A stretch of DNA of 64,000 nt, from contig NZ_AYTM02000002.1 of assembly GCF_000507185.2 (NCBI RefSeq), forward strand, positions 3,441,001-3,505,000. Direction: 5' to 3'. The notes beneath the pieces were generated by a model. That model was not told the origin of the DNA, did not search any database, and worked only from the letters and a program-made list of their open reading frames with translations. Shown piece by piece: positions 2,679 to 51,316 of this stretch. How positions within the stretch are numbered: the stretch's first letter is position 1; each line of letters opens with the position of its first letter. The position numbers and the translations under genes were made by a program. The stretch is from Pseudomonas syringae KCTC 12500 (GTDB lineage: Bacteria; Pseudomonadota; Gammaproteobacteria; Pseudomonadales; Pseudomonadaceae).

Positions 2679-3113
2679 ATGAAAGCACAAAAAGGTTTTA
2701 CGTTAATCGAACTCATGATCGTAGTTGCGATCATCGGTATCCTGGCTGCCGTCGCAATCCCTTCATATAATACTTACACACTAAAGGCTAAGGTTTCTGA
2801 GGCCTCTGCAATTTCTGCTCCGGCGCAGCAAGCACTTGCGCTGGCTTTCAATGACGGTAGTCTATCGGCTGCAACAACAAATGCATCTTTAGGTTTGCCG
2901 GCTGCTGCTAGCATAACTAGTAAGTATGTTACTTCTGTCACTGCTGTTGGCACCTCGGCAACCGCAGGTACTGTTACAGTTGTAATGCAAGGTACCGGTA
3001 GCGCTGATGTAGATACAAAAAACGTTGTATATACAATGACATGTGTTGCGAGTGCTCAGTGCACATGGACTGTTGGTGGGACGGTTACAGCCGCTTATCT
3101 TCCTAAAACCTAA
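2679..3113 (+). CDS. pilA: type IVa major pilin PilA
   Basis: A 144-residue type IV prepilin. It has a short 6-residue leader (MKAQKG), cleavage before Phe, Glu at mature position 5, and the hydrophobic N-terminal helix [20 protein letters not shown]. The C-terminal disulfide loop is defined by C122 and C128. It is processed by PilD (outside the window) and assembled by PilB/PilC. A GGAG ribosome-binding site lies 9 bases before the ATG. The body is Ala/Thr/Val/Ser-rich with little aromatic content, and the DNA is clearly AT-richer than flanking genes (codons such as aca, gta, agt, act), which suggests exchange of pilin alleles. Being divergent from pilB is the normal Pseudomonas arrangement. 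Confidence 0.96.
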
Positions 3114-3774: not shown

Positions 3775-4467
3775 ATGAACACCACCGCATTACCCAGTCG
3801 CCTCCTCGGTGTGGGCCTATACACCCCAGCAGAAGCGTCCTCATACACTGGCATTCCAGCAAAGGACATTCGTAGATGGATGTTTGGCTATAGCGCGGCA
3901 GGCGTCGATCACCCCGGCCTCTGGACGCCAGAGGTTGCATTTCTCGACGACAAGCTGCTCGGCTTCCACGACCTGCTGGAAATTCGTTTTGTTCATGCAT
4001 TTCGCCAGCACGGCGTCAGCTTCCAAGCGATCCGCAGCGCCTCGTTGCAAGCCAGAGAAATGTTCGGTCAGCTCTACCCGTTTACGTGCAGACGCTTTCA
4101 AACCGACGGTCGGGATATTTTCGCGACCGTCCTGGATGAAACGGGTGATGAGGCTCTGCTGGATCTGGTGAAGCGGCAATACGCGTTCAAGCAGGTCATT
4201 ACGCCCTCTCTGTACGAGGGCATTGATTACGCAGGTGAAGAGTCGGCAAAGCGCTGGTATCCGGTCAAGCGAAGCAAGGCAGTCGTTTTGGACCCCGCAA
4301 GGAATTTTGGCAAACCGGTGTTGGCAACAACGGGAATCGACACAGCAACGACCTATCATTCTTATCTAGCTGAAGGCCAGAACGCGAAGCGTGTGGCTTT
4401 ACTCTATGAGATTGCGCCTGTCGCAGTGAAAGCAGCCGTTAACTATGAGCGTAGCCACGCAGCTTAA
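3775..4467 (+). CDS. DUF433-type antitoxin-like protein with MerR-like HTH (orphan)
   Basis: A 230-residue protein. The N-terminus (LYTPAEASSYTGIPAKDIRRW) resembles a MerR-type helix-turn-helix that selects a DNA-binding surface. The C-terminus carries the DUF433 signature (VVLDPARNFGKPVLATTGID, then VALLYEI and AAVNYE). In homologous operons this protein is followed by a short PIN/DUF5615-type toxin. Here only 47 bases separate it from a convergent gene and no toxin frame is visible, so it is an orphan antitoxin or a stand-alone regulator. The function is inferred from architecture only. Confidence 0.7.
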   Translation: MNTTALPSRLLGVGLYTPAEASSYTGIPAKDIRRWMFGYSAAGVDHPGLWTPEVAFLDDKLLGFHDLLEIRFVHAFRQHGVSFQAIRSASLQAREMFGQLYPFTCRRFQTDGRDIFATVLDETGDEALLDLVKRQYAFKQVITPSLYEGIDYAGEESAKRWYPVKRSKAVVLDPARNFGKPVLATTGIDTATTYHSYLAEGQNAKRVALLYEIAPVAVKAAVNYERSHAA

Positions 4468-4514: not shown

Positions 4515-5060
4515 CTACCTCACCACCCCATCAACCCGCGCCCGCCCCTTAAACCTCCTCCTAACCCCAACCACAACCATCACCACCAACAACCCCACCA
4601 CCACAAAAAAGATCGTGTTAAAAACCGGAAACGGCTGATCACGACTCGTCACCGCTTCAACTTCGGTCACGTTGGGAAACATCGACAGGATGGTTATCCG
4701 CCAACCGTAGTAACGGATCAAAGCCAGTTGCTGGGAATCACGCGAGTAGCCTTGGGCTTTGGCCTGGATGTCGGCGGAGTCGAATTTGAAGTACCACGGG
4801 AAGCTCCAGCCGGTGTCTTCGTTGCGGTAGACCACGACTTTCTTGCTGTCCGGGTCTTCGGTGTTGATGAAGTACACGTCGCGGGTCGGGCCGTCTGCCG
4901 GGTTTTCGGCGTTGATGACGCCGTCGGCGTCCATTCTTTTGACTTCCACGCCGGTGATCATCACGACATCATGGCGCGGCAGGACGTAGTAGAGGCTTAA
5001 TGCGCCGATCCCCAGTGCAACGAATACCACAAGCCAAATCGACCTTCTCAGCCACTTCAT
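4515..5060 (-). CDS. DUF1523 family membrane protein
   Basis: A 181-residue protein with an N-terminal membrane helix (about 6-27, IWLVVFVALGIGALSLYYVL), a periplasmic middle domain (about 30-145, containing DVYFINTEDPDSKKVVVYRN) and a second helix near 148-166 followed by an Arg-rich tail. This layout is that of the DUF1523 family, whose biochemical role is not known. The start ATG at 5060 has AGAGG upstream. It is transcribed away from the Ter operon and towards the DUF433 gene, and seems to be monocistronic. The 119 bases before the Ter operon must hold promoters for both directions. Confidence 0.75.
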   Translation of the reverse strand: MKWLRRSIWLVVFVALGIGALSLYYVLPRHDVVMITGVEVKRMDADGVINAENPADGPTRDVYFINTEDPDSKKVVVYRNEDTGWSFPWYFKFDSADIQAKAQGYSRDSQQLALIRYYGWRITILSMFPNVTEVEAVTSRDQPFPVFNTIFFVVVGLLVVMVVVGVRRRFKGRARVDGVVR

Positions 5061-5179: not shown

Positions 5180-6178
5180 ATGATTTGGTTCCTTGAAGGG
5201 CAATCCAGCCAGCGTGAAGTGATCATGGGGGCGCGCGATGCGCTACCTGCGTCGGTGCAGATCATCGCTTCGCATCGCCAGCAGCGCTCCGAAATCACCG
5301 GGCAGGCCGATGTGGCGCTGCAAGAGCCGGTCGATAACGACGAGCGTATCGACTGGGTGCTGCACACCGCTCGCTCGCTGGGCGTCAAGATTATTGTCGC
5401 CGGCCGGATAGGCAGCTTTTACGAAGCGCAGCGTGCGCGTTTTGTCGCTGAAGGGTTGGACCTCGTCACCGGCGGAACGTCCCTGCAGACCTTCATGGAT
5501 GTCGATGACAAGAGTCGTTTCACGGCAGCGGCCGAGGCGGCGGGGCTGGCATGTATTCCGGGGATTGCCGTCAGCAATGCCGAGGAGTTGCAGGCGGCTT
5601 ACGATGCGTTGGCGGTGTCTGGCGAGGTGTGCATCAAGCCGGTGGTCGGGATTTACGGGCGCGGCTTTTGGCGCTTCAAGACCGACGTTGACGATTTTCG
5701 TTGTTTCGCCAACCCCGATGCGCGTGAAACGACCTTTCAGGCGTACCTTAATGCTTATCGTCAGGCTGATGACGTGCCGGCCATGCTGCTCATGCCGTAT
5801 ATGCCGGGCAGTGAGTGTTCGGTGGACATGGTCTGCGAGCACGGCAAGGCGGTTGCCGTCGTCGGGCGGCGCAAGGTGGGGCTCAATCAGACCTTCGAGC
5901 GTGACAGCGAAGCTGTACAGCTCGCGGTACGTGCGGCGGAGCATTTTGCCTGCGACGGGCTGATCAATGTGCAGACCCGCGACGACGCGGATGGCAAGCC
6001 GCGCTTGCTGGAGATCAACCCGCGTTATTCAGGCGGCATTGGCTACACCCGTGAAACCGGCATCAACCTGCCGGGTATTTTCGCGGCAAGGCGTCTCGGC
6101 TTGAAAGAACCGGAAACACATTGGCTCGAAGATATCCGCGTCAAGGCCATCACGGTCGCTGTACGGGCCTCGGTTTGA
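5180..6178 (+). CDS. ATP-grasp ligase of the Ter-associated biosynthetic cluster
   Basis: A 332-residue ATP-grasp enzyme of the carbamoyl-phosphate-synthase-like type. The N-terminal third is a Rossmann-like pre-ATP-grasp domain. The ATP-binding part includes CIKPVVGIYGRGFWRFK (about 151-167, a Lys/Gly-rich strand-loop) and the metal ligands in LLEINPRYSGGIGY (about 277-290). It should join a carboxylate to an amine or thiol using ATP; the substrate is unknown. It is the first gene of a 13-gene co-directional run, with GGAG 8 bases before the ATG. Comparative work on Ter systems places such ligases beside TerD-type proteins and phosphoribosyltransferases in a predicted nucleoside-like metabolite pathway. 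Confidence 0.8.
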   Translation: MIWFLEGQSSQREVIMGARDALPASVQIIASHRQQRSEITGQADVALQEPVDNDERIDWVLHTARSLGVKIIVAGRIGSFYEAQRARFVAEGLDLVTGGTSLQTFMDVDDKSRFTAAAEAAGLACIPGIAVSNAEELQAAYDALAVSGEVCIKPVVGIYGRGFWRFKTDVDDFRCFANPDARETTFQAYLNAYRQADDVPAMLLMPYMPGSECSVDMVCEHGKAVAVVGRRKVGLNQTFERDSEAVQLAVRAAEHFACDGLINVQTRDDADGKPRLLEINPRYSGGIGYTRETGINLPGIFAARRLGLKEPETHWLEDIRVKAITVAVRASV

Positions 6179-6232
6179 TCGTGATAATAGATTTTTGCTA
6201 TCACTAATCGCTCTTATCAGGGAGGATCGGGC

Positions 6233-7372
6233 ATGAAGCTTCTTGCGCCAGGTGCAAACACTGCTTTAGCTAACGCCCACTGCACCTGGAACCTGGAGAG
6301 CGGTAAGTCTTCGGTTTTTGGTGAGTACGCAGCGGTCGCCTTGCTGGCGGTCAACGACAAGCGCCAGCCGATGGGCGATCCAGCGCTGCTGCAACAGGAA
6401 CAAGGCTGGATGGAGTGGAGCGGCGGCCCTCAGGATGTTGGCTGCACGTTAAGGCTGGACAGGCTCCCGACGGGCAGTGATCGCGTGCTGCTGATGGTCT
6501 ACGTCTACGCAGCCATGGGGCCGATCCGCGATATTGCCAGCCTGCACCTCAAAGTGGATGGTGATATCGAGCACCGCCTGGACCTGCGCGATAACGGCGA
6601 AGCGGCGATCATCATCGGCGAGTTCTACAAACGCAATGAGCAATGGAAATTCCGCGCGCTGAGCGAAGGCTCGGCGTATGGACTGTCGGCGTTCGGGCGC
6701 AAGATCGGTCTGGACGTGGACGACCGTCATCCGCGCCGCCCGTCTGCGGGGTCGGGTGGCGGGCCACGGCATGAGTCGGCGACCGGCACGGCGTTCGTGG
6801 TCGGCCCGGCGCACGTCATGACCTGTGCGCATGTCATCGAAGACATGGGCGTGTTCTACATCACTTCACTGGAGGGCCGTTACAAGGCCGAGCCAGTGGT
6901 CATCGACCGTCGCAACGACATCGCGCTGCTGCGCGTGCAGGGCGCACCGCTGTTGTCTCCGGTTACATTCCGGGACGGGCAGGGCTGTGAGCCGGGTGAT
7001 ACCGTAGCGGTTTTGGGCTATCCACTGGCGTCCATTTCAGGTGGCGGGTTGCAGGTGACTCAGGGCGGGATCTCCGGTCTGTTCGGCCTGCACAACGATG
7101 CCAGCCTGTTTCAGTTCACGGCACCGATACAGCCGGGGTCCAGTGGCAGCCCGTTATTCGACAACGGGGGCGCGGTGATTGGCATGGTGACCTCAACCGT
7201 ACCGGACGGGCAAAACATGAACTTCGCCGTGAAGTCCGCACTGTTGCTGGCCTTTCTGCAGGCGTGCCGCATCGACGCTGCGCATGCCCGCCCGGAAAGG
7301 TCGTACACCACCACAGAAATCTCACGCACCGCTCAGTCGTCGTTATGGCTCGTTGAAGCCTCTCGCCAATGA
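6233..7372 (+). CDS. TerD-domain / trypsin-like serine protease fusion
   Basis: A 379-residue two-domain protein. Residues about 1-165 form a TerD/TerZ-type stress domain (LLAPGANT start, DGDIEHRLDLRDNGEAAIII, then EFYKRNEQWKFRA). After a Gly/Pro/Arg linker (about 166-182) comes a trypsin-like protease with the triad apparently intact: His200 in MTCAHVIED, Asp229 in RRNDIALL, Ser304 in QPGSSGSP. There is no signal peptide, so it should act in the cytoplasm. The TerD part may sense Ca2+ or envelope state and control proteolysis of a partner. GGAGG precedes the ATG; it lies 54 bases from the ATP-grasp gene. Domain identity is solid; the target is unknown. Confidence 0.85.
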   Translation: MKLLAPGANTALANAHCTWNLESGKSSVFGEYAAVALLAVNDKRQPMGDPALLQQEQGWMEWSGGPQDVGCTLRLDRLPTGSDRVLLMVYVYAAMGPIRDIASLHLKVDGDIEHRLDLRDNGEAAIIIGEFYKRNEQWKFRALSEGSAYGLSAFGRKIGLDVDDRHPRRPSAGSGGGPRHESATGTAFVVGPAHVMTCAHVIEDMGVFYITSLEGRYKAEPVVIDRRNDIALLRVQGAPLLSPVTFRDGQGCEPGDTVAVLGYPLASISGGGLQVTQGGISGLFGLHNDASLFQFTAPIQPGSSGSPLFDNGGAVIGMVTSTVPDGQNMNFAVKSALLLAFLQACRIDAAHARPERSYTTTEISRTAQSSLWLVEASRQ

Positions 7373-7438
7373 AGTCGGTGTTGCCTGGCTGGTCTGCAGG
7401 CGTCAGGGGCTGCGGCCCCGCTAATCAGGAATATATCG

Positions 7439-8572
7439 ATGGACAGCAGCGCAGCTTTTTCCAACCCTACAAAGCTTCGTGCTGATCTGCTTCGTGGTCG
7501 CCTCGATGTCAGCGTCGATTCGTCGACCATCGCTCCGGATTCACTGTTCGGCTTCGCCGAGCGGCGTAATCCCAAGCGCGCGTTTCTCTTCGTGTCCCGA
7601 GTGTTGGGACGCCACATCCCTGCGCGCCCGAGCGTGATGCTGAAAAGCTTTCAGGACCTGGCGCACAAGATCCCCGCAGACCTGCCCGGTCCGGTGCTGG
7701 TCATCGGCATGGCCGAAACCGCCGTGGGCCTCGGCGCCGGGGTACACCGTGCCTACAGCGCAACGCGCCCGGATGCCCTGTACATGGTCAGTACGCGCCA
7801 TCCGACCGGCAGCGCGCTGTTCGCCCGCTTTGAAGAAGAGCACAGCCACGCCAGCGCTCATCTGATCCACCTGCCCGTTGATCCGGCGTTACGCGAGATG
7901 ATGCTCGGTGCCCGTTCGCTGGTGCTGGTCGATGACGAGGCGTCGACGGGCAAGACCTTCATCAACCTGCATCAGGCGCTGGTCGACGCTGGCTTGAGCA
8001 AGCTCGAGCGGGTGGTGACCTGCGTGCTCACCGACTGGTCGGCGGGCGCGGTCAGTACCTCGATGGGCGCAGTGGCAGAACAGGTCTCGCTGCTGCAAGG
8101 CTCGTACTCCTTTGATGAAGACGTAAGCGCGCCGCTGCCGGAGATGCCGGAAGTCGGCACCGTTGCCATGGGTGACTGGCCGCTGGTCACTGCCAACGAC
8201 TGGGGGCGCATGGGTGTGCTGTCGGTGGCCGATACGCTGGCACCCGGCATTACCGTCAAAAAGGGCGAACGCATTCTGGTGGTTGGCACCAGTGAGTTCG
8301 TCTGGCGCCCGTTCCTGCTCGCTGAGCGTCTGGAGAAGGCCGGAGCCGACGTGCATTTCAGTTCCACCAGCCGTTCACCGATTGCACTCGGTCATGCCAT
8401 CGACCATGCGCTGTCGTTCTCCGACAACTATGGCCTGGGCATCCCCAACTTCCTCTACAACGTGCGGCCGGGTCAGTTCGACCGGGTGCTGATCTGTACC
8501 GAAACCCCAAGGCAGGCCGTGCCTGCCGAGTTGATCGAAGCACTGAATGCCGAGGTCATCTGCGATGAGTAA
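7439..8572 (+). CDS. phosphoribosyltransferase with C-terminal TRSP domain
   Basis: A 377-residue protein. The PRPP-binding loop of type I phosphoribosyltransferases is seen as LVLVDDEASTGKTF (about 161-174), preceded by a hood-like N-terminal part. The C-terminal roughly 130 residues (from about 245, ending in the PGQFDRVLICTETP segment) correspond to the TRSP domain found only in this Ter-linked family. It is expected to transfer a base or base-like group to or from phosphoribose. A GGGGC-TGCG-GCCCC hairpin at 7406-7419 sits before the start, without a U-tract. Its stop overlaps the next start (ATGAGTAA), which implies translational coupling with the HAD gene. Confidence 0.82.
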   Translation: MDSSAAFSNPTKLRADLLRGRLDVSVDSSTIAPDSLFGFAERRNPKRAFLFVSRVLGRHIPARPSVMLKSFQDLAHKIPADLPGPVLVIGMAETAVGLGAGVHRAYSATRPDALYMVSTRHPTGSALFARFEEEHSHASAHLIHLPVDPALREMMLGARSLVLVDDEASTGKTFINLHQALVDAGLSKLERVVTCVLTDWSAGAVSTSMGAVAEQVSLLQGSYSFDEDVSAPLPEMPEVGTVAMGDWPLVTANDWGRMGVLSVADTLAPGITVKKGERILVVGTSEFVWRPFLLAERLEKAGADVHFSSTSRSPIALGHAIDHALSFSDNYGLGIPNFLYNVRPGQFDRVLICTETPRQAVPAELIEALNAEVICDE

Positions 8573-9323
8573 CGACCGCCCGTTGATCTTCGTCGATCTG
8601 GACGACACGCTGTTCCAGACCGCGCGCAAAACCCCGGCTGGCATTGAAAAGCATGTCGCAACCCTGGACATCACGGGTAATGCCAACGGTTACATGACCA
8701 ACGTGCAGAAGTCGTTCGCGCACTGGCTGCTGGCGCATTCCGATGTGGTGCCGGTGACGGCGCGCAGTGTCGAGGCCTACAGCCGGGTCAAACTGCCGTT
8801 CACCGCAGGCGCGATCTGCTCCCATGGTGGGGTGATGCTCGATGTCATGGGGCGACTGGATCATGACTGGAACGAGCAGATGAAACAGACCCTGGCCAGC
8901 TACCAGTCGCGCCTGCATGAGCTGTCGGCGACGACACTGGCGATCGGTCAGGAGCTGGGGTTTTCACTGCGCGGCTGGGTGGTCGAAGAGGCGCAGCTGT
9001 TCCATTACGTGGTGACCAAGCATAACGAGAGCGATGACAGCATCCTCGGCAAAGTGCTGGCCGAAGTGCAGGCGCGGGGCTTGCTCGATGGCATGCACAT
9101 CCACGGCAACGGCAACAATCTGGCTTTCCTGCCCGAAGGGCTGGCCAAGCGTTACGCGGTCCAGGAGTGGCTGCGGCGCGACAAGGCGATCAATGGCGAA
9201 CGCCCGGTGCTCGGTTTTGGCGACAGCATTACCGATCTGGGTTTCATGGACGAGTGCCACTGGTGGGCGACACCTGCCCGCAGTCAGTTGGCGAAAATGT
9301 TTGTCGGAGCAGCGCATGAGTGA
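8565..9323 (+). CDS. HAD-superfamily phosphatase, Cof/sucrose-phosphatase-like (Ter cluster)
   Basis: A 252-residue HAD hydrolase. Motif I is FVDLDDTLFQT with the nucleophile and acid/base Asp pair at residues 11 and 13; motif IV is GFGDSITDLGFM near 219-230. The position and size of the cap fit the C2 (Cof/SPP-like) subclass. It probably dephosphorylates an intermediate made by the neighbouring phosphoribosyltransferases. The start at 8565 is preferred over an upstream in-frame ATG because it overlaps the preceding stop. The end overlaps the next gene by the same ATGAGTGA pattern. Confidence 0.82.
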   Translation: MSNDRPLIFVDLDDTLFQTARKTPAGIEKHVATLDITGNANGYMTNVQKSFAHWLLAHSDVVPVTARSVEAYSRVKLPFTAGAICSHGGVMLDVMGRLDHDWNEQMKQTLASYQSRLHELSATTLAIGQELGFSLRGWVVEEAQLFHYVVTKHNESDDSILGKVLAEVQARGLLDGMHIHGNGNNLAFLPEGLAKRYAVQEWLRRDKAINGERPVLGFGDSITDLGFMDECHWWATPARSQLAKMFVGAAHE

Positions 9324-10410
9324 TCCCGTTCACGGGCTCGATACGGTCGGCAGCGGCAGTTACCTGCACGATGATGTGCATTTTCTGTTGCGCGGCGTGG
9401 CGCTACAGACCACCAGCGTCGAGGAGAAGGAGCGCCTGATTCAGACGCGACAGAAGCACTATTCGGAAATGATCAGCGAGGAGTCAGCGCCTAGCGCCGC
9501 TCACAAGGCGCTGTATGAGCGGGCGCTCGAGCAGAACGGCGCGCGCATGGCCGACGATGTACAGGCCCTGGCCCAGGCGCTCGCCCGCGAGTGCGCAGGT
9601 GCTGAAATCATTCTGGTGTCGTTCGTGCGCGCCGGTCTGCCGCTGGGCGTGTTGTTGCGGCGGGCGCTGATCGATCTGGGCCGCGAAGCGCACCACTACG
9701 GCATCAGTATCGTCCGTGATCGCGGCATTGATACGGTGGCGCTTGAAGCCATCATTCAGGCCCACGGCGCGCAGAGCATCGTGTTCGTCGACGGCTGGAC
9801 CGGCAAGGGCGCGATTTCGGGGGAGATCCGTCGCAGCCTGGCGGGCGATACGCGCTTTCCGGATCAGCCACGGCTGGTGGTGCTGGCCGATCCGTGCGGC
9901 AGTGCCTGGCTGGCAGCGTCGGCAGAAGACTGGGTGATTCCGTCCGGCATTCTCGGTGCCACGGTGTCCGGTCTGGTGTCGCGCTCTATCTGGCCGGCGG
10001 ACGGCGGGCTGCACGGTTGCGTGGTGTACGAGCAGTTGCGGGACCACGACGTCACGCAGTCTTTTATTGAACAGATCGACAGCCAGCGTCGTCAAAACAG
10101 TTCTACGCTCACACTGACACCCTGGACGCTGGCTCAGCGAACCGAACTCAAGGCCGCCGCATCACAGGTGGTCGACCGTCTGGCCGAGCGCTTCAGGATC
10201 AATAACTTCAATCGCATCAAGCCGGGCATTGCCGAAGCCACCAGAGCGGTCATGCGCCGCGTGCCGGATCACGTACTGGTGCGCAACCTGGCTGACAGCG
10301 ACGTGCAATTGCTGTTGCACCTGACCGAAAAAGCGGGGATTCCCGTCGAAGAAGTGGGCGATCTCCTGGGGCCCTATCGGGCCGTGACCATCATTCGGAG
10401 TCTGAGCTAA
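9316..10410 (+). CDS. phosphoribosyltransferase with C-terminal PELOTA-type domain (StiP-like)
   Basis: A 364-residue protein. A phosphoribosyltransferase core has the PRPP loop SIVFVDGWTGKGAI (about 154-167), with an upstream SFVRAGLPLG segment typical of the family. The last 90 residues or so (MRRVPDHVLVRN then GIPVEEVGDLLGPYRAVTII) resemble the PELOTA/L7Ae-like RNA-binding fold described for these Ter-linked proteins. Some annotations call the family cysteine protease StiP, a name the visible PRTase motif does not support. The start at 9316 overlaps the HAD stop; its TAA shares a base with the next ATG (TAATG). Confidence 0.8.
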   Translation: MSDPVHGLDTVGSGSYLHDDVHFLLRGVALQTTSVEEKERLIQTRQKHYSEMISEESAPSAAHKALYERALEQNGARMADDVQALAQALARECAGAEIILVSFVRAGLPLGVLLRRALIDLGREAHHYGISIVRDRGIDTVALEAIIQAHGAQSIVFVDGWTGKGAISGEIRRSLAGDTRFPDQPRLVVLADPCGSAWLAASAEDWVIPSGILGATVSGLVSRSIWPADGGLHGCVVYEQLRDHDVTQSFIEQIDSQRRQNSSTLTLTPWTLAQRTELKAAASQVVDRLAERFRINNFNRIKPGIAEATRAVMRRVPDHVLVRNLADSDVQLLLHLTEKAGIPVEEVGDLLGPYRAVTIIRSLS

Positions 10411-11360
10411 TGGCCTTATTCTCGCCTTATGCGCTGGGGGCAACGCTGTATATGCCCGCGACCCGGGACGACATCGTCGATGTGGTGTTCGGTGAAAAGA
10501 TTCCCGAGCTGCGTTCGCTGGTTGTCTGTCTGGAAGACGCCGTGGCGCTGACCGATGTCGACACGGCGTTGCTCAATCTTCGTCAGGTACTCACCCGAAT
10601 CCGCGATCGTGGCGGTCGTCCGGCCAACGGTCCGCTGCTGTTCGTGCGTCCGAGGGACGCAGCGATGGCGCGCATTCTCAACGACTGGCCGCTGATGGCG
10701 CACGTCGACGGTTTCGTTGTGCCCAAGCTCTCGCTGAAAAGTCTGACGAGTTGGGAGCAGGCCGTCACCAATCCTTCGCTGGCGTTGATGCCTACACTGG
10801 AAACCCCCGAGGTGTTCAATCCGACCGCGATGGTCGAGTTGGGGGAAGCCTTGAAGGCCAGTCTGTACGAGCGGATCATTGCGCTGCGCATCGGGGGTAA
10901 TGACCTGATGGGCTGCCTGGGGCTGCGCCGCAATCCGGCCATGACCCTGTATTCGACGCCGATGGGGTATGTCATCCCCATGCTGGCGGGGGTCATGGGT
11001 GCGCAGGGCTTTTCGCTCACCGCACCGGTGTTCGAGCAACTGGCCACTCCGGACATTCTGCAGCATGAACTGGCGCTGGATATTACCAATGGATTGGTCG
11101 GTAAAACGGCAATTCACCCCTCGCAGGTCAATATCATTCAGAATGCGCTACGCGTCAGTCTGGAGGACATGAACTCCGCCCGGATGATTTTGAACTCTGT
11201 GGCCCCCGCAGTGTTCAAGTACAACGACGCGATGTGTGAACCGGCTACCCACTACAAATGGGCAGCCCACATCATGGAGCGCGCCAAATGGCATGGAGTG
11301 TTATCCGCACCCGCTTCGATCATGGATGCCAGCATTCGACTCGCTGAGGCAGTTAGCTAG
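10410..11360 (+). CDS. HpcH/HpaI aldolase / citrate-lyase-beta-like protein (Ter cluster)
   Basis: A 316-residue TIM-barrel C-C lyase of the CitE/HpcH type. Visible signatures: VVCLEDAVALTD (about 32-43), the phosphate/acyl-contacting LLFVRPRD (about 70-77), the LRIGGNDLMG segment with acidic metal ligands (about 158-167), and GKTAIHPSQVNIIQ (about 231-244). Such enzymes cleave or form bonds in malyl- or oxaloacetate-like substrates with Mg2+. Within this cluster it would add or remove a 2-3 carbon unit on the predicted nucleoside-like product. It is translationally coupled upstream and its stop TAG directly abuts the next ATG. Confidence 0.85.
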   Translation: MALFSPYALGATLYMPATRDDIVDVVFGEKIPELRSLVVCLEDAVALTDVDTALLNLRQVLTRIRDRGGRPANGPLLFVRPRDAAMARILNDWPLMAHVDGFVVPKLSLKSLTSWEQAVTNPSLALMPTLETPEVFNPTAMVELGEALKASLYERIIALRIGGNDLMGCLGLRRNPAMTLYSTPMGYVIPMLAGVMGAQGFSLTAPVFEQLATPDILQHELALDITNGLVGKTAIHPSQVNIIQNALRVSLEDMNSARMILNSVAPAVFKYNDAMCEPATHYKWAAHIMERAKWHGVLSAPASIMDASIRLAEAVS

Positions 11361-12107
11361 ATGATAGAACCTGACCTTGAAACCGCAGGACCTGATCTTG
11401 AGCCTGTAGGGCCCGACCTTGAAATCGAAGTGGAACAGCGCCTGCTGGCGGTTTTCGATTTCGACGGCACCATTACCCGCCACGACAGTTTTGTCCCGTT
11501 TCTCAAATTCGCCTTCGGGCAACGTGCCTTTTCGGTGCGCATGGCGCGGCTGGTGCTGCCCAGCATCGGCTACCTGGCCAAGCGCCTGACCCGCGACGAA
11601 CTCAAGGGCCGCCTGATCAAGGCCTTCCTCAGTGGCGTCGAAGTGCAATGGCTGCAGCAGAAGGCTGAAGCGTTCTGCCAGTCGCACTGGAAACGCCTGA
11701 TGCGTCCTGCTGCGCTGGAGTCCATCGCCGCTGAAATCGAGAAGGGCGCCATTGTCACGCTTTGTTCAGCATCGCCTGCTATGGTCCTGCAACCTTTCGC
11801 TGATCGCCTGAAAGTAGAGCTGATCGGTACGAATCTGGAAGTGATCGACGGCAAGTTGACCGGCTTGATCGAAGGCAGCAACTGCCGCTGCGACTCGAAA
11901 GTTGCACGGCTGGAGAGCGTCTATGGGCCGCTGACCCAGTTCCGGGTTCGCGCATGGGGCGACACCCGAGGCGACCACGAATTGCTCGCCGCTGCTCAGG
12001 ATGCGCACTGGCGTTTGTTCCATCCGACGTGGCGTCGAGGCCGTTATAAAGGCCCCGTTAACGCCAAGTTACACAATCCTGATGGCAAAGACGGGCCAAC
12101 ACGGTAA
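11361..12107 (+). CDS. HAD-IB family phosphatase (SerB-like) with N-terminal PDLE repeats
   Basis: A 248-residue HAD subfamily IB hydrolase. Motif I is VFDFDGTITRHDSF (Asp pair at about 32 and 34), motif II LCSASPAMV, and the C-terminal metal site is WGDTRGDHEL. The family includes phosphoserine phosphatases and similar enzymes; substrate unknown. The first 20 residues are three imperfect copies of a PDLE-containing repeat coded by a roughly 24-bp tandem DNA repeat (11370-11430). The core HAD fold begins only after it, so the repeat is an accessory tail or a misassigned start. No better internal start codon with a ribosome-binding site was seen. It lies between the lyase and terZ. Confidence 0.8.
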   Translation: MIEPDLETAGPDLEPVGPDLEIEVEQRLLAVFDFDGTITRHDSFVPFLKFAFGQRAFSVRMARLVLPSIGYLAKRLTRDELKGRLIKAFLSGVEVQWLQQKAEAFCQSHWKRLMRPAALESIAAEIEKGAIVTLCSASPAMVLQPFADRLKVELIGTNLEVIDGKLTGLIEGSNCRCDSKVARLESVYGPLTQFRVRAWGDTRGDHELLAAAQDAHWRLFHPTWRRGRYKGPVNAKLHNPDGKDGPTR

Positions 12108-12153
12108 GGCTGTAACACTTTTATCCGAAATCCAACGTCACATGGAGCGAAAA

Positions 12154-12747
12154 ATGGCACTCACTTTGGCAAAGAACCAGACGATCTCACTCGAGAAAAC
12201 TGCTGGTACAGGCCTCAAGAAAGTCAGCATGGGACTTGGATGGGACCCTGAAAAAGCCAGTGGTTTCTTCGGTAAATTGCTCGGTGGTGGCGGCGGCGAT
12301 ATCGACCTGGATGCCTCGTGCATCATGCTCGACGCCGATAAAAAGCCCCTCGACCTGGTCTGGTTCCGCCAGTTGCAATCGCGTGACGGTGCCATTCAGC
12401 ATTCGGGTGACAACCGTACCGGCGAAGGCGCGGGCGACGATGAAACCATCAGCGTCGATCTGGAAAAACTGCCTGCCGCCGTCAAATACCTGGTGTTCAC
12501 CGTCAATTCGTTCACCGGTCAGAATTTCGAAAAAGTCGCCAACGCCTACTGCCGTATTGTCGACTTGGGCAGCCGTAACGAACTGGGTCGCTTTGATCTG
12601 TCCGAAAAAGGTCAGCACACCGGCGTGGTGATGTCTTATCTGGCGCGCACGCCGTCGGGCTGGGACTTCACTGCAGTAGGCCAGGTCACCAACGGTCGCA
12701 CTGCTGATGATCTGGTCGAGCTGGCGATCGGGGCTGTACGGGTATGA
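12154..12747 (+). CDS. terZ: tellurium-resistance-type protein TerZ
   Basis: A 197-residue TerD-family protein. The order of motifs matches TerZ: LAKNQTISLEKTAG, then MGLGWDPEKASGFFGKLLGG with the Gly-rich insertion typical of TerZ, GDIDLDASCIMLD, HSGDNRTGEGAGDDETISV (acidic Ca2+-binding loop) and a C-terminal segment GRTADDLVELAI. The start 12154 is chosen because it has the family N-terminus and a GGAG 8 bases upstream; the frame is open further up. The last bases overlap the terA start (ATGA). TerD-family proteins bind Ca2+ and are linked to envelope stress, phage and colicin resistance and tellurite resistance. Confidence 0.9.
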   Translation: MALTLAKNQTISLEKTAGTGLKKVSMGLGWDPEKASGFFGKLLGGGGGDIDLDASCIMLDADKKPLDLVWFRQLQSRDGAIQHSGDNRTGEGAGDDETISVDLEKLPAAVKYLVFTVNSFTGQNFEKVANAYCRIVDLGSRNELGRFDLSEKGQHTGVVMSYLARTPSGWDFTAVGQVTNGRTADDLVELAIGAVRV

Positions 12748-13937
12748 CCCAACTCGTCCCGGGCGCCAACGCGCCGGTCGCTGCCGGCCCGCTGACGGTG
12801 GAAATCATCTACTCTCCGATCGCGGATGCGGATATCGACGTCTCCGCTTTTCTGCTGACCGCGTCCGGCAAGGTCCGTGGCGATCAGGACATGTGTTTCT
12901 ACGGCCAGAAAAGCGTGAACGGCGGTGCGCTGCAGCAGACGGAAGCGTCGGCCGGACGCGCGGTGTTCAGTCTTGACCCGAGCCGCCTGGACTCGGTCAT
13001 CGAGAAGGTTGCCCTGACGGCGACCATCTATGAGAACAAGGCCAGTTTTGGCAGCGTGTCACGCTTGGCCTTGAACATCACCGGCGGTATCGAAGCCGAT
13101 ATCCCGACCAGTGGCATGAAAGAAACCGCGCTGATTCTGGGCGAGTTCTACCTGCGTCAGGGTGCATGGAAATTCCGTTGCGTGGCCCAGGGTTTTGCCG
13201 GCGGCCTTGAGCCATTGGCGAAAAACTTCGGCGTTGAAGTCGCCGCGCCTCAGGATGAGCCTGCACCTGCACCTGCACCTGCACCTGCACCTGCACCTGT
13301 TCCAGCGCCTGCACCGAAGTCGACCGTCAGTCTGAGCAAGATTACGCTCGACAAGACCCGTGCTTCGATCAGCCTGGAAAAATCCAGTGCCGGTTTCGGT
13401 GAGATTCGGGTCAACCTGAACTGGAACCGTCGTAACGACAGCAAGGGCGGCGGCTTCTTCTCTATGAAGAAGAGCAATGCCATTGACCTTGATGTAGGCT
13501 GCCTCTTCGAAATGCAGGACGGTCTCAAAGGCGCTGTTCAGGCGCTGGGCAACTCGTTCGGTTCACTCAACACCGAGCCGTTCATCAAGTTGATGGGCGA
13601 TGACCGTACCGGCTCGATCAGCGACGGTGAGTGGCTGCATATCAATGGCGCACACTGGAGCAAGATCCGTCGCATTCTGGTCTACGCGTTCATCTATGAA
13701 GGTGCGCCGAACTGGAAGGAAACCGACGGGGTCGTCACCATTCACGCGCCTGGCCAGCCGCCCATCGAGGTTCGCCTCAATGAAGAGGGCGGTCGTCAGG
13801 GCATGTGTGCCATTGCCCTGCTGGAAAATGACAACGGTGCGGTCAAGGTGACGCGTCGTGTGGATTTCCACAACGGCCACAGCAACATGGACAAAGCCTA
13901 CGGCTGGGGCATGCGCTGGGCTGCCGGTTCCAAGTAA
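12744..13937 (+). CDS. terA: tellurium-resistance-type protein TerA (two TerD-like domains)
   Basis: A 397-residue protein built of an N-terminal TerD-like domain (about 1-165), a Pro-Ala linker (about 171-192) and a C-terminal TerA-type domain (about 195-397, with NLNWNRR and AIDLDVGCLFE, and LMGDDRTGSISDGE as the acidic loop). The linker is coded by a run of perfect hexanucleotide repeats (13258-13300). Its ATG overlaps the terZ stop. TerA is a core member of Ter clusters and is thought to form a membrane-proximal complex with TerB, TerC, TerD and TerE. Confidence 0.88.
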   Translation: MTQLVPGANAPVAAGPLTVEIIYSPIADADIDVSAFLLTASGKVRGDQDMCFYGQKSVNGGALQQTEASAGRAVFSLDPSRLDSVIEKVALTATIYENKASFGSVSRLALNITGGIEADIPTSGMKETALILGEFYLRQGAWKFRCVAQGFAGGLEPLAKNFGVEVAAPQDEPAPAPAPAPAPAPVPAPAPKSTVSLSKITLDKTRASISLEKSSAGFGEIRVNLNWNRRNDSKGGGFFSMKKSNAIDLDVGCLFEMQDGLKGAVQALGNSFGSLNTEPFIKLMGDDRTGSISDGEWLHINGAHWSKIRRILVYAFIYEGAPNWKETDGVVTIHAPGQPPIEVRLNEEGGRQGMCAIALLENDNGAVKVTRRVDFHNGHSNMDKAYGWGMRWAAGSK

Positions 13938-13988
13938 ACAATACCGTGGTATTTCTGGGCTGGCTGTGCCGCCTCATGGGAGATAGAC

Positions 13989-14438
13989 ATGCTGGACTGG
14001 TTGAAAACAAACGCAACAGCTGCTCGCGAAAAGCTGGCTTCGGAAGTCTCGAAGTTCAAGAATCGCGAATTCATGGAGGCTGTGGTTTCCGGCTGTGCTC
14101 TGGTATCGGCCGCTGACGGTGATATCAGCTCCAGTGAAAAGCAGAAAATGGCCGGCTTCATTCAGAACTCTCAGGAACTGAAAGTTTTCGACATGAAGGA
14201 CGTCATCCAGGGCTTCCAGGAAGCCTGCTCCAAGTTCGAGTTCGATTTTGAAATTGGTCGCGCCGAGGCCTTGAAAACCATCGGCAAGATCAAAAAGAAA
14301 GAAGATGCAGCCCGTTTGCTGGTGCGCGTCTGCTGTGCTATCGGTGGCGCCGATGGCAGCTTCGATGAGAAAGAGCGGGAAGTCTGCCGCACGATCTGTC
14401 GAGAGCTTGGCCTCAACCCGTCCGATTTCGACCTGTAA
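13989..14438 (+). CDS. terB: tellurium-resistance-type protein TerB
   Basis: A 149-residue all-helical TerB protein. Two internally similar acidic segments, SAADGDISSSEKQKMAGF (about 38-55) and GGADGSFDEKEREVC (about 118-132), are the metal-binding Asp/Glu motifs of the family. It is cytoplasmic and predicted to be the adaptor between TerD-type proteins and membrane TerC. GGGAG lies 8 bases before the ATG; spacing to terA is 51 bases and to terC 26 bases. Confidence 0.92.
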   Translation: MLDWLKTNATAAREKLASEVSKFKNREFMEAVVSGCALVSAADGDISSSEKQKMAGFIQNSQELKVFDMKDVIQGFQEACSKFEFDFEIGRAEALKTIGKIKKKEDAARLLVRVCCAIGGADGSFDEKEREVCRTICRELGLNPSDFDL

Positions 14439-14464
14439 TTTTTTACCCTAAGGAACGCAGTTAA

Positions 14465-15499
14465 ATGGAAAGCACCTCTCTAGGCTTCCCTCCACTCACG
14501 ATGGCGGTTTTCGTCGGTCTGGCCGTTACGGCCATGGCTATCGACATGTTCTCCCACCGGGGAAACAAGCCAATCACCCTCGCGCAAGCCTCGGCGTGGT
14601 CGATTTTCTGGGTCGCCATTTCGCTGGCCTTCGCGGGTTTTCTGTATGTCCAGCACGGCTCTGAAGTCGCCACGCTGTTCGTGACCGGTTACGCGCTGGA
14701 AAAAGTGCTGAGCGTCGACAACCTGTTCGTGTTCATGGCGTTGTTCTCCTGGTTCAAGATTCCGGATGGCCTGCGCCACCGCGTTCTGTACTGGGGCATC
14801 ATCGGCGCCATCGTCTTCCGCGGCATCTTCGTCGCCATCGGTACCGGCCTCCTGGCGCTGGGTCCATGGGTCGAAGTGGTGTTTGCGGTCATCGTTGCCT
14901 GGACAGCCATCATGATGCTCAGGGCGGGCGATGACGACGACGAAGAAGTCGACTACTCGCAACACATGGCTTATCGCTTCGCCAAGAAGCTGTTCCCGGT
15001 GTGGCCAAAACTGCACGGCAGCAACTTCTTCGTCAGCCGCTCGGTTCTGGAGCAGGAAGTCAAAAAGCCTGAAAACGCCGGTATCACGCTGGCGGCAAAA
15101 GGCGCTTTGTTCGCGACCCCGTTGTTCCTGTGTCTGGTTGTGGCGGAAATCTCCGACGTTCTGTTCGCATTCGACTCCGTGCCTGCAATCATTGCCGTGA
15201 GCCGCGAGCCGCTGATTGTGTTCTCGGCGATGCTGTTCGCGATTCTTGGTCTGCGTACCCTGTACTTCGTTCTGGAAGCCCTCAAGCGCTATCTGGTGCA
15301 CCTGGAGAAAGCGGTTATCGCCTTGCTGTTCTTCATTGCCTTGAAATTGGGCCTGAATGCTACCAACCACCTGTTCCATCACGGTTACGAGATCAGCGCC
15401 AATGCCAGCCTGCTGGTGGTAGTCGTCGTATTGATCATCGGTATCGTTGCAAGCCTGCTCTTCCCGGGCAAAGACGAATCCGCGGAAGAAAAAGCGTAA
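14465..15499 (+). CDS. terC: integral membrane protein TerC
   Basis: A 344-residue TerC-family protein with about nine hydrophobic segments. The signatures EKVLSVDNLFVFMALF (about 79-94) and VAEISDVLFAFDSVPAIIA (about 225-243) carry the acidic intramembrane residues thought to contact metal ions. A cytoplasmic acidic loop (DDDDEEVD, about 157-164) separates the two halves. TerC proteins are implicated in metal export and tellurite resistance, and act as the membrane anchor of Ter complexes. A long reverse-strand frame (14480-15862) over this gene is a GC-rich shadow. Confidence 0.93.
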   Translation: MESTSLGFPPLTMAVFVGLAVTAMAIDMFSHRGNKPITLAQASAWSIFWVAISLAFAGFLYVQHGSEVATLFVTGYALEKVLSVDNLFVFMALFSWFKIPDGLRHRVLYWGIIGAIVFRGIFVAIGTGLLALGPWVEVVFAVIVAWTAIMMLRAGDDDDEEVDYSQHMAYRFAKKLFPVWPKLHGSNFFVSRSVLEQEVKKPENAGITLAAKGALFATPLFLCLVVAEISDVLFAFDSVPAIIAVSREPLIVFSAMLFAILGLRTLYFVLEALKRYLVHLEKAVIALLFFIALKLGLNATNHLFHHGYEISANASLLVVVVVLIIGIVASLLFPGKDESAEEKA

Positions 15500-15526
15500 A
15501 CACTGGATAAAGGAGATAAACGAATC

Positions 15527-16102
15527 ATGGCTTTGACTCTGCAAAAAGGTGGCAACCTTTCGCTGTCGAAAACCGACCCTACCCTGACCAAAGTATTGAT
15601 CGGTCTGGGCTGGGATCCGCGAGCCACTGACGGACAGGGTTTCGACCTGGACGCCAGCGCATTCCTGTTGGCCGCCAATGGCAAGGTCCGCAGTGAAGCT
15701 GACTTCATTTTCTACAACCAGCTCAAGAGCGCCGACGGTTCTGTCGAGCACACCGGTGACAACCGTACCGGTGCTGGCGACGGCGATGACGAAGTGGTCA
15801 AGGTCGATCTGACCCGTGTGCCTGCTGATGTCGACAAGATCGCATTCGTGGTGACCATTCATGACGCAGAAAGTCGTGGCCAGAACTTTGGCCAGGTGAG
15901 CCGCTCTTTCATTCGCGTAGTGAATGAAGAGTCGGGCGCGGAAGTCGTCCGTTACGATCTTGCTGAAGACGCCTCTACCGAAACCGCAATGATCTTCGCT
16001 GAGTTGTACCGCAATAACGGCGAGTGGAAATTCCGCGCCGTTGGTAGCGGTTTCAAGGGGGGACTAAAAGCATTGGCCAACTCTTTCGGCATGAATTTCT
16101 GA
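15527..16102 (+). CDS. terD: tellurium-resistance-type Ca2+-binding protein TerD
   Basis: A 191-residue TerD. The full motif set is present: [45 protein letters not shown], the acidic loop [20 protein letters not shown] and [16 protein letters not shown] near the C-terminus. It is about 60 percent similar by eye to the next gene, so the two arose by tandem duplication. GGAG lies upstream of the ATG. The family forms beta-sandwich Ca2+ binders that attach to the inner face of the membrane in stress responses. Confidence 0.93.
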
Positions 16103-16139
16103 TTCACGCCCAACCACTTTTCTGGAAAGGATCAAGAAC

Positions 16140-16718
16140 ATGGCAGTAAGTCTGAGTAAAGGCGGCAACGTTTCCCTGTCCAAAGAGGCTCCTGGCCTGA
16201 CAGAAATCACCGTGGGCCTGGGCTGGGATCCGCGTGTGACCGATGGCACCGAGTTCGACCTGGATGCGTCGATCTTCATCGTTGGCGAAAATGGCAAAGT
16301 GCTGGACGATAACAGCTTCATTTTCTACAACAACAAGAAGTCGGCTGATGGCTCGGTCGAGCACCTGGGCGATAACCGTTCAGGCGCTGGCGAAGGCGAT
16401 GACGAGTCGGTAACGGTTAAGCTCACTGGCCTGGCAGCGGCAGTGAAGAAGCTGGTTTTCGCGGTCACCATCCATTCTGCCGAAGAGCGCAAGCAAAGCT
16501 TTGGCCAGGTTTCCAACGCTTACATCCGCGTTGTGAACAAGGCTGACGGCAAGGAAATCGCTCGTTACGACCTGTCGGAAGATGCATCGACCGAAACCGC
16601 GATGATCTTCGGCGAGCTGTATCGCAATGGCGAAGAGTTCAAGTTCAAGGCCATTGGCCAGGGCTTTGCCGGCGGTCTGAAGCCGTTGGCAGAAGCTCAC
16701 GGCGTGGCAATCGGCTAA
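16140..16718 (+). CDS. terE: tellurium-resistance-type Ca2+-binding protein TerE
   Basis: A 192-residue TerD paralogue and the last gene of the cluster. It has [62 protein letters not shown] and [19 protein letters not shown]. Order after terD and sequence suggest TerE, but TerD and TerE are hard to separate by eye. A perfect long-stem terminator begins 12 bases after its stop and closes the operon. Confidence 0.9.
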
Positions 16719-16730: not shown

Positions 16731-16775
16731 CCCAATAAAAACCCCCGCCAGCGATGGCGGGGTTTTTTTATTGGG
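16731..16775. terminator. strong bidirectional terminator after the Ter operon
   Basis: The ends CCCAATAAAAA and TTTTTATTGGG pair around CCCCGCCA / TGGCGGGG with a 4-base loop, giving a stem of nearly 20 bp with a T-run on the plus strand and an A-run that serves the opposite strand. Confidence 0.9.
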
Positions 16776-16943: not shown

Positions 16944-18020
16944 TCAGCGTTCGCTTCTGCCCACACCCGATGGCCCTGCGGCCAGCATGCGCCCGGCCAG
17001 TCGAGAGAAGGGCAGGCTTTGCAGCCATACCGTGCCAGGGCCGGTCAGTCTGGCGAAGAACACCCCTTCGCCGCCGAACAGCATCGACTTGATGCCGCCA
17101 CCGACCATTCGGATATCGTAATCGACTGTCTGGGTCATGGCTGCCAGGCAGCCGGTGTCCACATCCAGCGCTTCGCCCGCCGCCAGTTCGATCTTGCGCA
17201 CCGTGCCGCCCATGTGTACGAATACCCAGCCGTCGCCTTCCAGCTTTTGCAGGATGAAACCTTCGCCCCCGAACAGGCCGGTGAGGATTTTCTTCTGGAA
17301 CTGGATACCGATGGAGACGCCTTTGGCGCCGGCCAGGAAACTGTCTTTCTGACAGATCAGCTTGCCGCCGAAATCACGCAGGTTGAGCGGCAGTATCGTG
17401 CCCGGGTAGGGCGCTGCAAACGCCACGCGGCCCTTGCCCGAACCCTGTTGCGAAAACACCGTGGTGAACAGGCTCTCGCCGGTCAGCATGCGCTTGCCTG
17501 CACCGAACAGCGAACCCAGCAGCCCTGACGATTGATTGCTGCCGTCGCCGAAGATGGTTTCCATCTGCACGTCGCACGTCTTGTACATCATCGCCCCGGC
17601 TTCGGCGACGGCGCTTTCGCCAGGGTCAAGCTCCAGTTCGATGAACTGGGTTTCCGTGCCGTACAGCTTGAAGTCCACACCGTCGGTGGTCTGCGCCAGG
17701 CCATAGCCGCCCGAGGCGTTCGGGTCGTGCGTAAACGAAGGGCGTCTGGCGGGCACCGAGGCCGGCGCGGGTGTCGGGGCTGCCTGCGCTGGCAGCGCGG
17801 ACGGCTTGGGCTGAACCATGTCCGGCGTCGGATCAGGAAAAGGCGTCACACCGTCCTTCTTCATGGCGCGCACCTGCGGAACCTGATAGATCGGCTGCCA
17901 GTCCGGCATGCCTTGCTTCCAGCACCAGGCACCGGGCGACTCACGGGCAATCAGCCGCGCAGCATCCGCGTCCATCGGGCCGAGTTGCTTGCCTGCGTTC
18001 ATCACAAACCATTGTTCCAA
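16944..18020 (-). CDS. TIGR00266/AIM24 family protein with N-terminal GYF_2 domain
   Basis: A 358-residue protein. Residues about 3-48 (WFVMNAGKQLGPMDADAARL, then AWCWKQGMPDWQPIYQVP) form a GYF_2 domain. A Pro/Ala linker runs to about 115, and residues about 125-350 are an AIM24 beta-sandwich (ELDPGESAVAEAGAMMY, then GLFGGEGFILQKLEGDGWVF and MLFGGEGVFFARLTGPG). The frame starts with TTG at 18020, which has GGGAG 8 bases upstream; a later ATG at 18002 would cut into the GYF domain. The role is unknown; AIM24-type proteins are often envelope-stress-linked. It is convergent with the Ter operon rather than part of it. Confidence 0.82.
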   Translation of the reverse strand: MEQWFVMNAGKQLGPMDADAARLIARESPGAWCWKQGMPDWQPIYQVPQVRAMKKDGVTPFPDPTPDMVQPKPSALPAQAAPTPAPASVPARRPSFTHDPNASGGYGLAQTTDGVDFKLYGTETQFIELELDPGESAVAEAGAMMYKTCDVQMETIFGDGSNQSSGLLGSLFGAGKRMLTGESLFTTVFSQQGSGKGRVAFAAPYPGTILPLNLRDFGGKLICQKDSFLAGAKGVSIGIQFQKKILTGLFGGEGFILQKLEGDGWVFVHMGGTVRKIELAAGEALDVDTGCLAAMTQTVDYDIRMVGGGIKSMLFGGEGVFFARLTGPGTVWLQSLPFSRLAGRMLAAGPSGVGRSER

Positions 18021-40277: not shown

Positions 40278-40421
40278 GGGATGCACTGTTTGAAGGAATA
40301 TTCGGCCAAAAACGTGGAATGACCGCATGATGGGCGGGGATTCTAGCATTTAGTCGAGTGATGGTGTAGGAAGCTGTCGCGCAAGGGTAAACGATGGCGC
40401 GGATCAAGGCGGGGAAGCTAC

Positions 40422-40865: not shown

Positions 40866-40904
40866 AAAAAAGCCGGGCCTGCGTTACCGTAAGACCCGGC
40901 TTTT
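40866..40904 (-). terminator. terminator downstream of cbrB
   Basis: On the reverse strand GCCGGGTC and the matching CCCGGC arm pair around TTACGGTAACG and are followed by TTTTTT; the plus strand has a shorter TTTT, so it may work both ways. Confidence 0.8.
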
Positions 40905-40975
40905 GTTACGTGAAACGCTTGAGGTAACAGTTTGTACCCGCCCTGCGCACCGCGTGCCAGAGCCTTGGGCTGGTT

Positions 40976-46694: not shown

Positions 46695-46792
46695 AACAAT
46701 CTCATGCCTTATCTGCAGCTGCTGCCAACGAAGTGCTTTTTTGATCGCGATGGCATGAACGACGCAAATTGCGACGTTAGTGACGGCTGAGT

Positions 46793-51292: not shown

Positions 51293-51316
51293 ATGACCGG
51301 TGGTTTTGTGCCGGGC

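Follow-up and report, generated by a model that had tools for sequence, protein, structure and literature searches.

The question raised by one chromosomal locus of Pseudomonas syringae KCTC 12500 is why genes for apparently biosynthetic enzymes are strung onto the terZABCDE genes of a Ter system, and what the two parts might do together. The locus was examined in a window of 64,000 nucleotides (nt; the whole stretch of DNA analysed, positions 3,441,001 to 3,505,000 of contig NZ_AYTM02000002.1), in which 13 open reading frames, all on the plus strand, occupy positions 5180 to 16718. They code for an ATP-grasp ligase, a TerD-like domain fused to a protease (TerD-protease), the phosphoribosyltransferase (PRTase) designated PRTase_2, a phosphatase termed HAD1, the StiP protein, a CitE-like C-C bond lyase and a second HAD-type protein, HAD2, followed by TerZ, TerA, TerB, TerC, TerD and TerE. 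We infer that this run is one transcription unit, a Ter operon in the arrangement typical of Pseudomonas and located on the chromosome, and on balance it is probable that PRTase_2, HAD1 and StiP generate a phosphoribosyl-derived metabolite, which is tailored by the lyase and the ATP-grasp ligase and acts with TerZABCDE in stress tolerance. The system is of a Ter kind already described, as follows from the Pfam name ATPgrasp_Ter and from the StiP description, which cite Ter and tellurite, and its nucleoside-like product is, as stated in a preliminary description of this DNA, a published comparative-genomics prediction dating from 2012 (Anantharaman, Iyer and Aravind, as related in excerpts of PMC7824862 and PMC8115787).

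Linkage of the enzymes to the Ter core

Evidence that the enzymes and the Ter core belong together comes from synteny, shared distribution, spacing and divergence. When 25 loci fetched from other Pseudomonas genomes were compared with the window (tblastn, E<=1e-4, best non-overlapping matches), the identical 13-gene order was recovered in 20 of them, which is more than expected by chance. In the five exceptions, the contig is truncated (L050), the TerD-protease is missing (L056), the orientation of the Ter core is reversed with respect to the enzymes (L066), or several genes are absent (L067 and L068). The inverted locus gave only short matches to the ATP-grasp ligase (63 aa) and to the TerD-protease (65 aa). 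A second set consists of 80 named loci, which are the best 80 of 595 confirmed stretches selected by StiP and hence not a random sample, and which overlap with the fetched Pseudomonas set in some genomes; here matches below 30% of the query were dropped, StiP excepted, and tallies over the 80 loci need at least 50% coverage. The identical order was found in 14 of the 17 Pseudomonas-titled loci of this set. The same gene order and count also occur on the Pseudomonas plasmids pZYPA192 and pNY11382-IMP, with proteins 55-90% identical to those of the window, where the cluster is chromosomal. An IMG/VR contig filed as viral (L160), possibly a plasmid or provirus, holds the full 13-gene run as well.

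The distribution of the genes within the genus follows the same pattern. StiP is found in 23 of 149 Pseudomonas genomes, PRTase_2 exceeds its cut-off in the same 23, and TerD is present in these 23 and in one more. The C-C lyase is matched at E <1e-90 in the same 23 genomes, with 61 of the 149 passing the family cut-off, mostly weakly. Three genomes carry two StiP genes each, both lying in full 13-gene runs in G038 and G104, with one on a short contig in G030. In a sample of the phylum, StiP occurs above cut-off in 9 of 299 genomes (11 at E<=0.001), and of 72,556 plasmid records 2568 gave a match to it. The distance between the last enzyme gene and terZ is exactly 2 nt in 13 of 32 loci, with a median of 2.5 nt and a value of 46 nt in the window, and the divergence of the enzymes is correlated with that of the core (Mantel r 0.77, 23 loci). 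Two loci in the spacing table, L084 and L095, duplicate L057 and L053, and several of its outliers (among them -579 nt for TerD/TerE in L067, 144 for HAD1/StiP in L068, 215 for TerA/TerB in L044, -70 to -73 for CitE/HAD2 and -20 for HAD2/TerZ) depend on start choice or missing genes.

Among the StiP-selected loci, HAD1 is matched in all 80 and PRTase_2 in 77. The three genes PRTase_2, HAD1 and StiP stand in a row in 75 loci, the lyase comes immediately after StiP in 75, and at least one Ter core gene is in reach in 71. PRTase_2-HAD1-StiP is the commonest core of StiP-bearing clusters. The shared genomes, the synteny, the tight spacing and the correlated divergence together give good support to a single genetic unit of enzymes and Ter core, as had been proposed earlier, and also support one functional unit; spacing and synteny favour co-transcription. 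Judged from gene order, the Pseudomonas arrangement is a co-directional variant of the Ter cluster.

Predicted phosphoribosyltransferase folds and a phosphatase probably known under another name

The preliminary description had posited two different phosphoribosyltransferases, for which predicted structures lend support at the level of the fold. The predicted fold of PRTase_2 matches PRTases of the APRT/PurR type, and in the alignment residues D165, D166, E167, G171 and T173 are found in 34 of 34 sequences and T170 in 33, so that both the fold and the acidic loop for phosphoribosyl pyrophosphate (PRPP) mark it as a probable type I phosphoribosyltransferase. The meaning given here to the acidic pair of the PRPP loop, and likewise to the L7Ae motif, is the one we take to be generally accepted. 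StiP has a confident predicted model that matches phosphoribosyltransferases, and it would thus combine a PRTase fold with an L7Ae-like RNA-binding domain, despite its cysteine protease label. Its PRPP loop reads D-G-W-T-G-K-G (D159-G165), with D159 in 37 of 37 sequences. The top Foldseek rows for StiP, mostly pyridoxal phosphate enzymes, were judged spurious (TM score 0.25 or less, rmsd near 20 in the superposition), and the lower rows include HGPRTs and L7Ae-type proteins with E-values of 0.002 or more.

HAD1, which has no match in Pfam, is 72% identical to the 'trehalose phosphatase' of P. aeruginosa in PDB entries 6d3v, 6d3w and 6cj0, and at each of the 24 invariant positions of alignment A2 HAD1 and 6d3v have the same residue. 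The HAD1 of plasmid pZYPA192, encoded inside the identical 13-gene run, is closer still, with 230 of 251 residues (92%) identical to the 6d3v chain. Cys85 and Cys231 are quoted for an extrachromosomal trehalose-6-phosphate phosphatase of P. aeruginosa in the available portion of a 2019 article (PMC6838324), and the PDB chain and the HAD1 in the window each have precisely two cysteines, at positions 85 and 231. From the 92% identity and the matching cysteines, the characterised extrachromosomal enzyme is probably the HAD1 of a Ter operon; it was studied as a trehalose enzyme, whereas HAD1 of the window is encoded between two PRTase-fold proteins.

Proposed pathway and competing explanations

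In the pathway considered probable here, PRTase_2, which is APRT-like and has the full acidic PRPP loop, would attach phosphoribose to a base or another nitrogen acceptor, and HAD1, whose gene usually lies between those for the two PRTase-fold proteins, would take the phosphate off the resulting sugar phosphate. StiP would also use or bind PRPP and act on, or be steered by, structured RNA via its L7Ae-like domain, with the CitE-like lyase and the ATP-grasp ligase providing tailoring steps. The product or RNA event would then be read by a complex of TerD-domain proteins with TerB and TerC at the membrane, a read-out that may raise tolerance to envelope or oxidant stress, and the TerD-protease could serve as a protease arm recruited by Ter.

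Several observations weigh against this pathway. The co-occurrence counts are not corrected for kinship or phylogeny, and parts of the set are dispensable, with the ATP-grasp ligase in 57, the TerD-protease in 35 and HAD2 in 25 of the 80 StiP-selected loci. In nine of these loci, some on short contigs, the stretch covered contains no gene of the Ter core. Where PRPP loops normally have a second acidic residue, StiP has Gly in 36 and Ser in 1 of 37 sequences, hence StiP may bind PRPP without catalysis and is described by its fold, not classed as a catalytic PRTase. In Klebsiella, the enzymes sit on the strand opposite to terZ-F, according to both the locus comparison and an excerpt of PMC8115787, and the same excerpt relates that terZ-F alone confers tellurite resistance in E. 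coli MG1655, so that the enzymes are not needed for this phenotype. Since work on Klebsiella terC points, in the part of PMC9933665 at hand, to envelope stress tolerance, and terZ-F is sufficient for tellurite resistance, the role of the enzymes must lie elsewhere or be a modulating one.

The main rival explanation, which appears unlikely, regards StiP and PRTase_2 as sensors of PRPP or nucleotides, with StiP as an RNA-binding regulator similar to PyrR, an mRNA-binding protein, that reports to the Ter complex on the state of PRPP or nucleotides. It is disfavoured by the retention of the D-D-E..T-G.T loop in PRTase_2 and by the presence of a HAD phosphatase, a C-C lyase and an ATP-grasp ligase in the same operon, which suggests chemistry, and HGPRT rows score the same as PyrR rows for StiP in the fold comparison.

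Less probable still is that the two halves are mere neighbours, with terZABCDE acting alone in metal and oxidant tolerance and the enzymes forming an unrelated pathway that travels on mobile DNA. Besides the sufficiency of terZ-F, this is favoured by the variable relative orientation of the halves among lineages and by Rhizobium p42d and two relatives, where PRTase_2, StiP and HAD1 are present and no Ter core gene was matched within the 8-12 kb covered on each side. Rhizobium p42d, L134, L142 and one more relative have these three genes in another order, and no other gene of the window was matched in the vicinity. The loci of Rhizobium and Mesorhizobium (L078, L134 and L142) likewise have the trio reordered, and neither Ter genes nor a lyase or ATP-grasp gene were matched close to it. 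The confinement of the enzymes to the genomes that have TerD, the Ter core genes in reach of most StiP loci, the 2-nt junction and the correlated divergence all speak against a chance association, as does the Acinetobacter jumbo phage vB_AbaM_ME3, which shares with the window three consecutive genes for PRTase_2, HAD1 and StiP beside a TerD gene. This phage arrangement has already been published (PMC7824862, in the part available), and no match to the ATP-grasp ligase, lyase, TerA, TerB or TerC was found in the 25 kb of it that were fetched (E 1e-4), the matched proteins being 25-35% identical.

Of similarly low probability is a reading in which StiP is an RNA-directed phosphoribosyltransferase, whose L7Ae-like domain docks on structured RNA (tRNA, rRNA or kink-turn RNA) and whose PRTase domain, with its modified PRPP loop, attaches or exchanges a phosphoribosyl group or the nucleoside made by PRTase_2 and HAD1. 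The Ter 'metabolite' would then really be an RNA mark or an RNA-derived signal read by the TerD complex, and, if this were true, what has been published as a trehalose phosphatase structure would show the phosphatase dedicated to this pathway.

It is very unlikely that the run is an operon for sugar-phosphate or osmotic stress in which HAD1 genuinely acts as a trehalose-6-phosphate phosphatase. The close identity to 6d3v with its shared invariant residues favours this explanation, as does the assay of the P. aeruginosa enzyme as a trehalose-6-phosphate phosphatase (PMC6838324, in the portion available). However, the genome has no match to OtsA (PF00982), and none to the OtsB-type trehalose-6-phosphate phosphatase family (Trehalose_PPase, PF02358), either in HAD1 or elsewhere. 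HAD phosphatases are often promiscuous in vitro, and the work on the P. aeruginosa enzyme reportedly includes a study by Cross in 2018. OtsA exceeds its cut-off in 1 of the 23 StiP-bearing Pseudomonas genomes versus 18 of the 126 others, a difference that is not significant (p 0.31), hence only its plain absence is used as an argument. Because OtsA and an OtsB-type enzyme are missing here and OtsA is unmatched in 22 of the 23 StiP-bearing genomes, trehalose-6-phosphate is an unlikely natural substrate of HAD1, and its consecutive placement with PRTase_2 and StiP likewise disagrees with a trehalose role. A single literature search combining the terms found, among the papers covered, none linking trehalose phosphatase with tellurite resistance in P. 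aeruginosa.

The least credible of these explanations, that StiP is a cysteine protease and the operon, with its two proteases, a proteolytic stress or defence system, draws on the Pfam PF11202 description, the RefSeq product names and the trypsin-like protease in the operon, and is opposed by the predicted PRTase match of the StiP model and by the lack of any invariant cysteine, C235 being present in 38 of 39 and 29 of 37 sequences and C194 in 33 of 39 and 20 of 37 (sequences below 55% of the query length having been dropped from this alignment and from that of the protease triad). No cysteine-protease fold was among the fold rows listed for StiP, an absence that by itself proves nothing. Housekeeping nucleotide salvage is ruled out, as profile searches place the enzymes in families of their own (PF15632, PF15609, PF11202 and PF15617) and these are accessory, as the StiP counts given above for Pseudomonas and for the phylum sample show.

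Layout of the run, the missing terF and the surroundings

The run and the features around it are listed in Table 1. Starts were refined from the sequence for HAD1, StiP and TerZ, and names such as TerZ and TerA were assigned by order and similarity. The families claimed in the preliminary description were borne out by searches with Pfam (run proteins) and NCBIfam (first nine proteins only), and for HAD1 by its identity to a solved HAD phosphatase. Proteins of the biosynthetic module (ATPgrasp_Ter, PRTase_2-TRSP, StiP-PELOTA, C-C lyase and HAD proteins) and of the core module (TerD-domain proteins TerZ, TerD and TerE, with TerA, TerB and TerC) thus occur together in one cluster. The nearest solved relatives of the lyase belong to the citrate lyase and malyl-CoA lyase families. 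The closest named proteins come from Pseudomonas syringae among the best 120 of 5505 and the best 120 of 532 homologues. Alignments A3, A5 and A6 cover 36, 33 and 28 of 82 loci, and the window itself belongs to a genome of 6.15 Mb assembled into two contigs, lying on the one of 6.01 Mb.

Table 1. Positions in the window of the 13 genes of the run and of neighbouring and other features
Feature	Position	Strand	Description
Type IV pilin-like gene	2679..3113	+	upstream of the run; identified by sequence reading
HTH_66 protein	3775..4467	+	DUF433 match below cut-off; adjoins the run
DUF1523 gene	4515..5060	-	flanks the run
ATP-grasp ligase (ATPgrasp_Ter, PF15632)	5180..6178	+	332 aa; 145.9 bits vs cut-off 29.1; NCBIfam matches below cut-off
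TerD-like domain fused to trypsin-like serine protease	6233..7372	+	379 aa; Trypsin_2 91.7 bits, TerD 31.7 bits
PRTase_2 (PF15609) with C-terminal TRSP domain (PF12500)	7439..8572	+	377 aa; Pfam
HAD1 phosphatase	8565..9323	+	252 aa; 176/245 identical to PDB 6d3v
StiP (PF11202) with PELOTA_1 (PF15608)	9316..10410	+	364 aa; predicted PRTase fold and L7Ae-like RNA-binding domain
CitE-like C-C bond lyase (PF15617)	10410..11360	+	316 aa; 345.4 bits
HAD2, HAD-IB phosphatase-like	11361..12107	+	248 aa; PF12710; TIGR01490 above cut-off
TerZ-like TerD-domain protein	12154..12747	+	197 aa; 163 bits
TerA	12744..13937	+	397 aa; 114 bits
TerB	13989..14438	+	149 aa; 85.2 bits
TerC membrane protein	14465..15499	+	344 aa; 138.3 bits
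TerD	15527..16102	+	191 aa; 292.3 bits; 301.3 bits to solved TerD 2kxt/2kxv
TerE	16140..16718	+	192 aa; 277.1 bits
Terminator-like GC-rich hairpin, then T run	16743..16762	+	after terE; sequence reading and terminator scan
AIM24 gene	16944..18020	-	flanks the run
CrcZ small RNA	40389..40779	-	363 bits
P36 small RNA	40874..40934	-	beside CrcZ
TwoAYGGAY RNA motif	46784..46897	+	54.8 bits vs cut-off 43
PrrF iron-responsive small RNA	51316..51463	-	single match in the window

Overlapping start and stop codons had been claimed for the run, and this holds for four of the 12 junctions (PRTase_2/HAD1 -8, HAD1/StiP -8, StiP/lyase -1 and TerZ/TerA -4 nt), to which one abutting junction (lyase/HAD2, 0 nt) can be added, whereas the other seven, including that between the enzymes and terZ, have gaps of 26-66 nt. 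The terminator claimed after terE is seen as a hairpin with a T run, which together with its mirror tops a list of 19 terminator-like sites, a scan that taken alone is weak as chance gives 11.6 (standard deviation 3.5). A scan of the window for sigma-70-like promoters gave one site only, below the chance mean of 3.2.

The cluster had also been called complete, which is wrong, because terF is missing. No TerF (a TerD-vWA protein) was found in the genome, the TerD-domain search giving five matches that all lie inside the run. In the nearest relatives, the loci of P. caricapapayae, P. amygdali, P. graminis and P. tremae (L080-L083), a TerF gene lies directly after terE on the opposite strand, and alignment with L081 shows that about 1.35 kb with this gene (L081 12547-13898) is absent at 16897-16902 of the window, with just 4 nt separating the flanks that align there. 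As TerF occupies the same place in L086, L089, L095, L099 and L100, its loss in this strain is the simpler reading of the alignments. TerF was matched in nine of the 17 Pseudomonas-titled loci, and the other eight show none within the stretch examined, which suggests that it is often dispensed with. A Klebsiella TerX query matched only the TerD, TerE and TerZ of the window itself, and vWA, TerY-C and CopG-type (labelled TerW-like) queries had no match in the window, terW and terY not having been sought genome-wide; the terX/terY-linked biosynthetic module of Enterobacteriaceae was thus not found in the window with Klebsiella-type queries.

Compared with the Ter system of 2012, the window has in common the TerZ, A, B, C, D, E core, the PRTases and the HAD phosphoesterases, but differs in its single co-directional run with the enzymes upstream of terZ, in the TerD-protease after the ATP-grasp ligase and HAD2 at the junction, and in lacking terF from the genome and any matched terX/terY-type gene from the window. 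The enzyme order ATP-grasp, PRTase_2, HAD1, StiP and lyase is the same as on Klebsiella plasmid pKP22-4, where strand orientation differs as described above.

TerD proteins bind Ca2+, and the acidic FDLDAS and GDDE stretches of the solved TerD, which we take to be the Ca2+-binding ones, are kept in TerD and TerE, with IDLDAS and GDDE in TerZ. Ca2+ binding by these three proteins is therefore plausible from their sequences, whereas GDDE is absent from the N-terminal domain of TerA and from the TerD domain fused to the protease. In the TerD-protease, H200, D229 and S306 are found in 24 of 24 aligned sequences and presumably form the His-Asp-Ser triad of a trypsin-like serine protease, and its TerD part, which lacks the acidic stretches retained in TerZ, TerD and TerE, aligns to no more than the C-terminal half of the model in Pfam. 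Two Pseudomonas runs that otherwise resemble this one, L056 and L085, gave no match to the TerD-protease, hence it is an accessory part. Near-full-length relatives occur in Burkholderia (63% identity), Thiothrix (40-42%) and Psychrobacter (31-36%), and a TerD-trypsin fusion of the same architecture, with TerD N-terminal to trypsin, was listed for P. syringae in 2008 (YP_273108.1; PMC2605481, in the part available, where it is not linked to the other genes of the operon). No known anti-phage system was recognised by PADLOC among the nine run proteins submitted (TerB, TerC, TerD and TerE left out), the TerD-protease being the sole match via its trypsin domain (RT-Protease_XI and, more weakly, PDC-M35A, LmuA and Avs1b).

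Taken as a whole, the observations of the preliminary description are largely right and partly confirmed, being overstated on completeness and overlaps, and its interpretation is partly supported. On the sides of the run, 10 relatives have kept nadC and the gene beside it, and the variable pilus-side flank, where the pilin-like gene lies, is matched in only 1 of the 10, so that no clean empty site was shown.

The analysis adds four points to what was known of the Ter system: HAD1 corresponds to an enzyme of solved structure, StiP has a predicted PRTase fold, terF is missing here, and three genes make up the commonest core. HAD1, as an enzyme probably solved and assayed under another name, would give a handle on the Ter product, and StiP, labelled a protease in Pfam and RefSeq though its model shows a PRTase fold and an RNA-binding domain, may give a second. 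StiP-bearing Ter clusters are widespread on plasmids, and their commonest core of PRTase_2, HAD1 and StiP shows which proteins to study first.

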